DNA from: an uncultured Bacilli bacterium
GTDB lineage: Bacteria > Bacillota_I > Bacilli_A > RF39 > UBA660
Reading direction: 5' to 3'
Assembly: GCA_947589495.1 (NCBI GenBank)
Contig: CANQAK010000008.1
Span: 1-34,453 of the forward strand
Length of the DNA: 34,453 bases
A model generated the notes under the pieces. The model was not told the DNA's origin. It did not search any database and saw nothing but the letters and a program-made list of their open reading frames with translations. This document shows, one piece after another, positions 6,075 to 8,695 of the stretch. A program made the translations under genes and the position numbers. Each line of letters begins with the position of its first letter. The stretch's first letter is position 1.

Positions 6075-6148
6075 AGGGGATTAGTTAAATGGTATAATAG
6101 GAGTCTCCAAAACTTTAGTTGGGAGTTCGATTCTCTCATCCCCTGCCA
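6075..6148 (+). tRNA. trnW: tRNA-Trp (anticodon CCA)
   Basis: A 74-base cloverleaf. The acceptor stem AGGGGAT/ATCCCCT is perfect, and the gene encodes discriminator G and the CCA end. The anticodon arm has the loop CTCCAAA, giving CCA, which reads UGG only. The T arm has the loop TTCGATT. No tRNA reading UGA as Trp is visible in the window, which agrees with UGA acting as stop in tsaB and in the ABC ATPase gene. Confidence 0.95.
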
Positions 6149-6235: not shown

Positions 6236-6264
6236 TTGAAATATTTTAAAAAAGGGTATATAAT
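6236..6264 (+). promoter_or_regulatory. Sigma-A promoter of the MATE-kinase fusion gene
   Basis: -35 TTGAAA (6236-6241), 17-base spacer, perfect -10 TATAAT (6259-6264). Transcription would start near 6271, leaving a leader of about 100 bases. Confidence 0.75.
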
Positions 6265-6280
6265 TAACAAAGTCTGATCC

Positions 6281-6328
6281 AGCAAAACATGCGTAAAAAC
6301 AAGACAGTTTTTATGCATGTTTTTTTGC
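6281..6328 (+). terminator. Leader terminator (attenuator) upstream of the MATE-kinase gene
   Basis: Fifteen-pair hairpin with one G-U pair (6286-6300 with 6307-6321, loop AAGACA) followed by TTTTTGC. It lies about 15 bases after the predicted transcript start and 44 bases before the start codon. Most transcripts should stop here unless something prevents the hairpin, so conditional read-through is likely. I see no known riboswitch consensus before it, and little room for one. Confidence 0.65.
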
Positions 6329-6371
6329 TTTAAAGATACATAAAATTATCACTTAAAAGGAGGAAGAAAAT

Positions 6372-8351
6372 ATGGAAAATCAAGATGATAATAAATTTTT
6401 AGGAGAAGAAAAAATATCTAAATTACTTTTAAAATTTTCTATACCATGTATTTTATCATTACTTATAAGTTCTCTATATAATATTGTAGATCAAATATTT
6501 ATAGGTAATAGTAAATTAAATTATTTAGGTAATGCTGCTACTGGCGTTGTTTATCCAATAACAATTATTGCTGTGGCTTTTGCTTGGTGTTTTGGTGATG
6601 GTGCAGCTGCCTACTTATCTTTATGTCAAGGTAGAGGTGATACTAAAAATGCACATAAATCAATAGGAAATAGCATATTAGTAACTTTAATTATTAGCAT
6701 TATATTTCTAATTTTAGGATTTATTTTTAAAGATCAATTGTTATACTTATTTGGAGCTAGTGATAAAAGTATAAACTTAGCGAGAGATTATTATGTAATT
6801 ATTTTAGCAGCAATACCAATATATATGCTAGGTAATAGTATGAATGCTGTAATTCGTGCTGATGGATCACCTAAATTTTCAATGGCCTCAACTTCTATTG
6901 GAGCAATCATTAATATTATTTTAGATCCAATATTTATTTTTACATTTGATTGGGGTATTAAAGGAGCTGCTTATGCAACAGTTATTGGTCAAATTGGAAC
7001 TTTGATAATTTCTATTATATATTATATTAGTAAAACTAAAACTTTTAAATTATGTAAGGATAGTTTTAAAATAAATTTTCATATATTTAAAAATGTTATA
7101 AAATTAGGAATATCTACTTTTATTACTCAAATGAGTATTGTTATTATTTCATTAGTTTGTAACATTATGTTAGCAAAATATGGAGCATTAAGTAAATATG
7201 GAGCTGATATTCCAATTGCAGTTATTGGAATAACTATGAAAGTGTTCTCAATCGTTATAAATATAATAGTTGGTTTAATTTTAGGAGCTCAACCTATATT
7301 AGGTTATAACTTTGGTGCTAAAAATATTAAGCGTGTTAAAGAAACATTTAAAAAAGTTGTTATAATTGCTTCTTTAATTGGGATTATTTCAACAATTATC
7401 TTTGAAATATGTCCTCAAGTTATTATAAGAATTTTTGGTTCTAATGAAAATTTATATATGGAATTTTCTGTATTAACATTTAGATTATTTTTAATGCTTG
7501 TTACCTTTACTTGTTTAATTAAATTATGTTCAATCTTTTTTCAAGCCGTTGGAGAACCATTAAAAGCTGCAATTGTATCTTTAGCAAGAGATATTGTATT
7601 TTTTGTACCGCTTGTTATTATACTTCCTAAATATATGGAAATTAAAGGTGTTTTAATTGCAGCTCCTATTGCAGATATGCTTGGAATAATAGTAACCATT
7701 ATTTTAGTTAAGAATTTCTTTAAGAATTTAGATGAAAAAAGAGAAGATAATACTGAAAAAGAATATTTACAAAATTCTAAAAAGGGAGTTATTATTACTA
7801 TTGCTAGAACTCATGGAAGTCAAGGAAAAGCTATTGGAGAATTAGTTGCTAAAAAATTAAATATTCCATATTATTATAAAGAAATGACTCTTCTTGCTGC
7901 TCAAGAAAGTGGATTAGATAAAGAATTTGTTTCAGATATTAATAAAAATCAAAATATTTTACATGATTTATATTTAACATCTTCTCCAGTAAAATATGCA
8001 ATTAAAGCCCAAGATAAAGTAATTAAAATGATTGCAAATAAAGGTTCATGTGTAATAGTGGGACGTGCTGCTGACTATGTTTTAAGAAATTATGAGAATG
8101 TAATTAAAATATTTATTTATGCTCCACTTCCATATCGTATTAAAAATATAATGGAAATGTATAAAGATTCTAAAAATGAAGCTAGAAAAAATATAGAAAA
8201 ATCTGATAAAAATAGAGCAAGTTATTATGAATTAATTTCTGGACAAACTTGGGGAAAAACTGAAAATTATGATTTATGTATTGATTCAAGTATTGGAAAA
8301 GAAAAAACTGCTCAAATTATTTATGAATACATTAAAAACATTACAAAATAA
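6372..8351 (+). CDS. MATE-family multidrug exporter fused to a cytidylate-kinase-like domain
   Basis: A 659-residue protein with two parts. Residues 1 to about 450 are a MATE transporter with about 12 hydrophobic segments and family blocks such as PCILSLLISSLYNIVDQIFIG, ADGSPKFSMASTSIGAIINI and GAQPILGYNFGAKN. MATE proteins expel cationic drugs or metabolites using Na+ or H+. After a charged linker, residues about 471-659 match the cytidylate-kinase-like family: ITIARTHGSQGKAIGELVAKKL stands where the P-loop lies, followed by CVIVGRAADYVLR. The P-loop is degenerate (HGSQGK), so kinase activity is uncertain. No stop or frameshift separates the parts. The start has AAAGGAGGAAG upstream. The C-terminal domain may sense nucleotides or phosphorylate a substrate before export; this is inference. 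Confidence 0.85.
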   Translation: MENQDDNKFLGEEKISKLLLKFSIPCILSLLISSLYNIVDQIFIGNSKLNYLGNAATGVVYPITIIAVAFAWCFGDGAAAYLSLCQGRGDTKNAHKSIGNSILVTLIISIIFLILGFIFKDQLLYLFGASDKSINLARDYYVIILAAIPIYMLGNSMNAVIRADGSPKFSMASTSIGAIINIILDPIFIFTFDWGIKGAAYATVIGQIGTLIISIIYYISKTKTFKLCKDSFKINFHIFKNVIKLGISTFITQMSIVIISLVCNIMLAKYGALSKYGADIPIAVIGITMKVFSIVINIIVGLILGAQPILGYNFGAKNIKRVKETFKKVVIIASLIGIISTIIFEICPQVIIRIFGSNENLYMEFSVLTFRLFLMLVTFTCLIKLCSIFFQAVGEPLKAAIVSLARDIVFFVPLVIILPKYMEIKGVLIAAPIADMLGIIVTIILVKNFFKNLDEKREDNTEKEYLQNSKKGVIITIARTHGSQGKAIGELVAKKLNIPYYYKEMTLLAAQESGLDKEFVSDINKNQNILHDLYLTSSPVKYAIKAQDKVIKMIANKGSCVIVGRAADYVLRNYENVIKIFIYAPLPYRIKNIMEMYKDSKNEARKNIEKSDKNRASYYELISGQTWGKTENYDLCIDSSIGKEKTAQIIYEYIKNITK

Positions 8352-8437: not shown

Positions 8438-8695
8438 ATGAAATATAAATTTAAAACTGAAAATACATGTGCTAAATTTATTGAGTTTGAATTAAATGAT
8501 GATATTGTTACAAATGTTAAATTTTTATCAGGAGGATGTCCAGGTAATTTACAAGCATTACCAAAACTTGTTGAAGGAATGACTGTAAAAGATATTGAAG
8601 AAAAACTAGGTGGTATTATGTGTGGAGTTAAAAAAACTTCATGTGCTGATCAATTAGCTAAGGCAGTTAAACAAGCTTATCAAAAATCAAAATAA
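8438..8695 (+). CDS. TSCPD-domain protein (TIGR03905-like)
   Basis: An 85-residue protein of the stand-alone TSCPD family. It has the cysteine positions typical of the group: GGCPGN near residue 34, MCGVKKTSCADQLA near 67-79, and an N-terminal TENTCAK. The domain also occurs at the C-terminus of some ribonucleotide reductases, where the cysteines may bind metal or act in redox; the role of the free form is unknown. The GGAGG ribosome site and the consensus promoter predict abundant product. It is a single-gene unit closed by a strong terminator. Confidence 0.9.
   Translation: MKYKFKTENTCAKFIEFELNDDIVTNVKFLSGGCPGNLQALPKLVEGMTVKDIEEKLGGIMCGVKKTSCADQLAKAVKQAYQKSK

Follow-up and report, generated by a model that had tools for sequence, protein, structure and literature searches.

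A MATE exporter joined to a cytidylate-kinase-like domain behind a candidate riboswitch leader in an uncultured Bacilli bacterium

Architecture and recurrence of the fusion

In an uncultured RF39 bacterium (assembly GCA_947589495.1), a 34,453-nucleotide stretch of contig CANQAK010000008.1, called the window here, holds a reading frame in which a MATE exporter is followed directly by a domain resembling cytidylate kinase. Is this a single gene, and if so, what would a nucleotide-kinase-like domain do on an export pump? The original prediction of one uninterrupted frame for both parts is borne out (ORF 6372–8351, with two matches to PF01554 and one to PF13189), and the gene has the following features:

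6372–8351, + strand: whole fused MATE–Cytidylate_kin2 gene (659 aa, one unbroken ORF)
6358–6364, + strand: Shine-Dalgarno AGGAGGA of the fused gene (from the sequence)
6372–7721, + strand: MATE exporter half, residues 1–450 (PF01554 twice, TIGR00797)
7722–7787, + strand: linker, residues 451–472, fast-evolving (dN; low pLDDT)
7788–8348, + strand: Cytidylate_kin2 domain of predicted NMP-kinase fold, residues 473–659 (PF13189, AlphaFold2, Foldseek)
7806–7829, + strand: non-canonical P-loop, R479-THGSQGK-486 (alignments)

By its domain matches, the 659-residue product is a MATE-family exporter with a Cytidylate_kin2 domain; export itself, of a drug or metabolite, is predicted. The two MatE repeats score 136 bits (Pfam PF01554, cut-off 24.9), the NCBIfam matE model TIGR00797 scores 193 bits (cut-off 147), and Cytidylate_kin2 (Pfam PF13189) matches residues 474–640 with 158 bits (cut-off 28; E 3.6e-46), while the protein falls below the cut-offs of the NCBIfam MepA and FepA models. 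The nearest solved MATE to the exporter half, by sequence, is BH2163 from Bacillus (4LZ6, 5C6O). Two MatE repeats and a full-length match are common to the fused protein and the DinF/MepA-type MATEs BH2163, MepA, and FepA, but the fused protein has about 200 extra C-terminal residues, which make up the NMP-kinase-fold domain. In the full-length AlphaFold2 model the MATE half is helical across residues 15–455, mostly at pLDDT 76–95, and residues ~457–463 of the linker have very low pLDDT.

The neighbouring RecG, SleB-like, and TSCPD genes are not conserved near homologues, so the fused gene appears to be a self-contained unit. The TSCPD gene, which encodes a small four-cysteine protein, follows on the same strand (8438–8695, +), and a 5S gene and the end of a 23S rRNA lie at the contig edge (34112–34453, −).

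Independent genomes of the same genus carry fused genes of 80–81% identity and 658–678 aa, with one frame through the junction. In a 395-genome sample of the class there are 16 intact fused genes, spread over six families, besides many stand-alone kinases; these 16 contradict the notion that homologues are always encoded as two genes. The fusion also occurs in Lachnospiraceae (complete genome CE91-St56, L131), in Spirochaetia (Treponema, Spirochaetota), and in one Bacteroidales MAG. The original prediction had proposed looking for split versions as well, and adjoining pairs were indeed found: the MATE gene precedes the kinase gene by 13 nt in Lachnospira eligens and Roseburia sp. 831b, and in Hungatella, Oscillibacter, Prevotella, and other genera the two genes overlap or lie almost end to end. 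Side-by-side pairs, present in Phocaeicola too, range in gap from −11 to +106 nt, and in one locus (L081) the order is reversed, with the kinase gene first and overlapping the MATE gene. Because the two are fused or side by side in so many gut bacteria, MATE and Cytidylate_kin2 form a genuine, repeated partnership.

That assembly, a frameshift, or a missed stop has artificially united two genes is therefore extremely improbable. Two-gene versions do occur, and some relatives have frameshifts, but the identical single frame crosses the junction in many independent assemblies, the complete CE91-St56 among them, and linker length is similar among the fused homologues. A missed stop or frameshift near 7740, which the original prediction had raised as grounds for doubt, is not seen, same-genus genomes having the same frame there; an artefactual origin was rejected on the intact junction in those genomes and in the 16 class-sample genes. 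In two genomes of the same genus (G030 and G036) the MATE half is interrupted by frameshifts of one base, each at its own site, and in these the fused gene may be decaying or mis-assembled. Such frameshifts in the fused genes of relatives (loci L088, L087, and L095), at differing positions within the MATE half, reflect either genuine decay or errors in the MAGs.

Both halves are known families, and their combined architecture is implicit in domain databases. The suggestion that the fusion lacks obvious precedent stands insofar as no paper describing a MATE–Cytidylate_kin2 fusion was found in the literature searched; it does not stand as a claim of singularity, since the fusion recurs in many genomes. 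A fused MATE–kinase homologue (40% identity over 90%) is present on MT839947.1, a 6-kb contig filed as bacteriophage that is probably bacterial DNA.

The kinase-like domain

AlphaFold2 predicts the tail domain confidently, with a pLDDT of 89.6, and in this model the domain has an NMP-kinase fold. Foldseek places 3HDT first (TMt 0.87, E 9.5e-14), together with 3FDI, followed by S. aureus CMP kinase and other NMP and shikimate kinases. The two leading matches, from Clostridium symbiosum (3HDT) and Eubacterium ventriosum (3FDI), are stand-alone Cytidylate_kin2 proteins with the same fold, invariant residues, and a non-canonical P-loop; the fused domain differs from them in being tethered to a transporter and in its P-loop sequence (H-G-S-x-G-K, against Y-G-S-G-G-R). 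With bacterial Cmk (PF02224) and archaeal (d)CMP kinase (TIGR02173) it has in common the fold and overall motif order, although TIGR02173 scores only 25.5 bits on the fused protein, below its cut-off of 102, and the Cmk Walker A motif GxGK[ST] is replaced by RTHGSQGKA, with the basic residue shifted by one. We take this residue to lie one place after the Walker lysine, in a register that we set by our own alignment to known Cmk sequence.

The altered P-loop HGSQGK, predicted earlier, is present at residues 481–486, but it is a family-wide trait and not peculiar to this gene. Alignment with stand-alone members gives R-E-[YFH]-G-S-x-G-[KR] for the Cytidylate_kin2 family where CMP kinases have GxGK[ST], so the alteration belongs to the family, of which the fused clade has the form H-G-S-x-G-K. 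Family invariants are retained in the fused copies (R479, G482, G485, the VGR[AC]AD motif with R565, and the lid arginine R615). Nonsynonymous divergence (dN) is 0.10–0.12 in the MATE half, 0.14–0.22 in the kinase domain, and 0.34–0.71 in the linker; dS in the kinase domain, at 0.5–1.7, is near saturation. Judged from these substitution rates, the kinase domain is under purifying selection. Since the classical Walker lysine position is lost, nucleotide binding by the tail can only be presumed.

Cmk is a near-universal enzyme whose loss is unusual. The window genome has no match to PF02224 at E ≤ 0.001, and none of the 28 genomes of its genus has one above the cut-off, whereas every other genus tested has a match. 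This raises the idea that the domain is the organism's substitute CMP/dCMP kinase, which merely happens to be attached to a membrane protein. Presence and absence were compared across 117 family genomes with a completeness of at least about 90%, unlisted genomes being counted as without a match. Cmk is found in 22 and missing in 95, and PF13189 is found in 28; Cmk occurs in 6 of the 28 genomes with PF13189 and in 16 of the 89 without it, and most Cmk-less genomes have neither. Against the idea, then, the two families are not complementary; a stand-in for the housekeeping enzyme is not supported by these 117 genomes, and we consider it quite improbable.

The leader RNA

The original prediction mentioned neither the leader RNA that lies just upstream of the fused gene nor an MMPL transporter bearing the same domain. 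The ~56-nt leader, transcribed from a promoter of the gene's own, is preceded by a tRNA gene (6075–6145, +) and has these elements:

6236–6264, + strand: sigma-70-type promoter TTGAAA-17-TATAAT (11 of 12 consensus matches)
6270–6330, + strand: leader RNA, with 5′ single strand, terminator hairpin, and U-tract (covariance-model hit 6270–6325, fold z-score −5.4)
6272–6275, + strand: candidate pseudoknot 5′ strand GUCU (complementary to loop 6302–6305; the equivalent pair covaries in homologues)
6302–6305, + strand: candidate pseudoknot 3′ strand AGAC, in the terminator loop (complementary to 6272–6275)
6284–6323, + strand: intrinsic terminator hairpin, 17 pairs, loop of 6 (1 found, 0.0 expected in shuffles)

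Homologous leaders, with the core GWGURGC ... GCGUAARUCC, have in common the 5′ strand, a ...CAGC/GUAGC element, GCGUA (6291–6295 in the window, inside the terminator hairpin), and the terminator, and TATAAT or TATACT stands at a constant distance from them. At 8 of 13 pairs in the terminator stem, both partners have changed. Across 16 distinct leaders of type B, the pseudoknot strands form 56 contiguous base pairs where 29.5 would be expected, a value that none of 20,000 shuffles equalled; the control dealt the loops out among the leaders, keeping composition and ignoring relatedness, so the p-value overstates independence. Co-varying strands include UCAAU/AUUGA, CAAC/GUUG, and AAUGU/ACAUU, and the GUCU/AGAC of the window leader is in the same register. 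Read by eye, some Lachnospiraceae variants appear to carry GCGUAAAUCC on another stem, within the apical loop, and its conservation even there argues for a role other than pairing. A leader peptide was also considered: window-type leaders read ATG-CGT-AAA-AAC-AAG, but Lachnospiraceae leaders have no start codon, and hence it is the RNA rather than a peptide that is conserved. A divergent variant, GUGGC...GCGUAAAUCUGAU with a GACAC/GUGUC closing stem, is found upstream of MATE genes that belong to this same group (L117, L128, L146, and L147), and the leader stands in tandem copies before a single MATE gene in L161, L163, and L245.

A covariance model (R1) built from 33 leaders has a sole plus-strand hit in the window genome, at 6270–6325 (E 8.9e-9). 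In 247 genomes of the class it finds 19 distinct places, 16 of them directly upstream of MATE genes; the remaining three precede a CarD-like gene (twice, with proteins 70% identical) and an MFS fragment (once). The leader may thus control a CarD-like transcription factor too; one of the two CarD-like loci (L092:4252–4307, −; L219:1501–1557) adjoins a fused MATE–kinase gene. The same leader also precedes MATE genes without the kinase domain, and no recognisable leader was found in 24 of 50 sampled fused genes with enough upstream sequence. Because about half of the sampled fused genes show none, leader and domain appear linked through the MATE clade and not to each other. A strict DNA pattern, GTGTAGC-N-GCGTAARTCC, had just 4 hits in 392 genomes and none in the reversed control, and is too strict to define a regulon.

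Guanidine-IV riboswitches, which often precede or control MATE genes (PMC12186494, PMC7736828, PMC9788692, PMC11611296), offer the closest comparison. Guanidine-IV and Gd4v have, as this leader does, a pseudoknot between the terminator loop and an upstream element and a MATE gene downstream, and the leader could be a member or degenerate variant of either, the MATE exporting guanidine or a derivative. The gene type and the logic of an ON switch with a pseudoknot into the terminator loop (PMC12186494, PMC7736828, PMC9788692) favour this. However, guanidine-IV consists of two hairpins joined by the pseudoknot (PMC9788692), whereas here the leader begins at 6270, just 6 nt past the end of the −10 box (6264), so that a 5′ hairpin has no place and the terminator hairpin is the sole one. 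The spacing is also shorter, the partners being ~24–27 nt apart in this leader group and ~41 nt apart in C. botulinum, where positions 30–71 and 29–72 pair (PMC11611296); moreover, the leader has a conserved core of its own and no match over the gathering score in Rfam 15, which may not include a guanidine-IV model. Membership is therefore unlikely in our judgement. The leader looks like an orphan riboswitch that resembles guanidine-IV in its logic; it is apparently undescribed and, on sequence grounds, may represent a new class.

Roles of the tethered domain

Whether leader, MATE exporter, and cytoplasmic nucleotide-binding tail together make up an inducible export unit is, in our view, an even call. 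In such a unit the leader hairpin would end transcription by default, when ligand is absent. If the 5′ end docks in the loop of this hairpin, an interaction that the cargo or a compound akin to it probably stabilises, read-through would follow, as in an ON switch; exporter and tail domain would then be made, and the MATE half would export the cargo. In the least certain step, the tail on the cytoplasmic side would bind a nucleotide (CMP/NMP- or ATP-like) and set the activity of the exporter. Against the model, many MATE relatives manage without the domain, whose contribution may be small, and the leader is also found before the CarD-like genes and the MFS fragment described above.

The phylogeny of the two halves bears on what the tail does. 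The window clade of the kinase tree comprises 40 rows, all of them fused; four of these (L064, L065, L096, and L168) combine a window-type kinase domain with a MATE half from a distant MATE clade (~27% identity in L064, L065, and L096). Conversely, MATEs without the domain (e.g., L123, L128, L130, and L133) are nested within the fused MATE clade. The fused state requires 16 changes on the MATE tree (at least 12 by starred branches) and 4 on the kinase tree, which implies that the domain was gained, lost, or exchanged several times; the trees (FastTree and quick trees) include long branches, and details are provisional. By these trees, its history is one of gain, loss, and transfer among distant MATE lineages. 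The domain also forms the C-terminus of a 929-residue MMPL/RND-type transporter (L242:1422–4211, −; genome G440).

A regulatory role, with the tail an accessory regulator of the pump and not a housekeeping kinase, has a slight edge, since the domain is not obligatory and pumps of different families carry it. We hold this reading tentatively, a little short of even, in view of the catalytic-type residues kept in the tail. These residues would suit a working kinase for small molecules or nucleotides. It would phosphorylate the cargo, its precursor or relative, or a toxin resembling a nucleoside, either ahead of export or in its place, so that kinase and pump would be the two arms of a detoxification. 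Chloramphenicol phosphotransferase is an example of this fold modifying drugs, and the NMP-kinase/shikimate-kinase fold, the conserved lid arginine and GR[AC]AD motif, and purifying selection on the domain point the same way. Yet the MATE and MMPL pumps that carry the domain have cargoes different in kind, and kinase-less MATEs have the same leader, so that a pump under that inducer need not carry the domain; phosphorylation by the tail thus seems rather unlikely, and that it does something else altogether is also doubtful.

The leader may tentatively be regarded as a new riboswitch class that senses a gut compound, and the tethered kinase domain as controlling or priming export of that compound; we think this conceivable without giving it the better half of our confidence. 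The compound that switches the leader on should identify what a widespread group of "multidrug" MATE pumps naturally exports. No description of transporters with a tethered nucleotide-kinase-fold domain was found in the literature searched, and the presence of Cytidylate_kin2 on pumps from two families with no relation to each other suggests a general module for efflux control or chemistry in gut anaerobes.

The gene divergent from the MMPL–kinase gene resembles, by eye, a TetR-type regulator. In genome G112 (L067:5376–6759, −), Cytidylate_kin2 follows a sub-threshold match to DUF6198 (23.5 bits, cut-off 27), the remainder of which lies in an overlapping upstream ORF; this arrangement suggests a frameshifted third fusion of the domain to a membrane protein.
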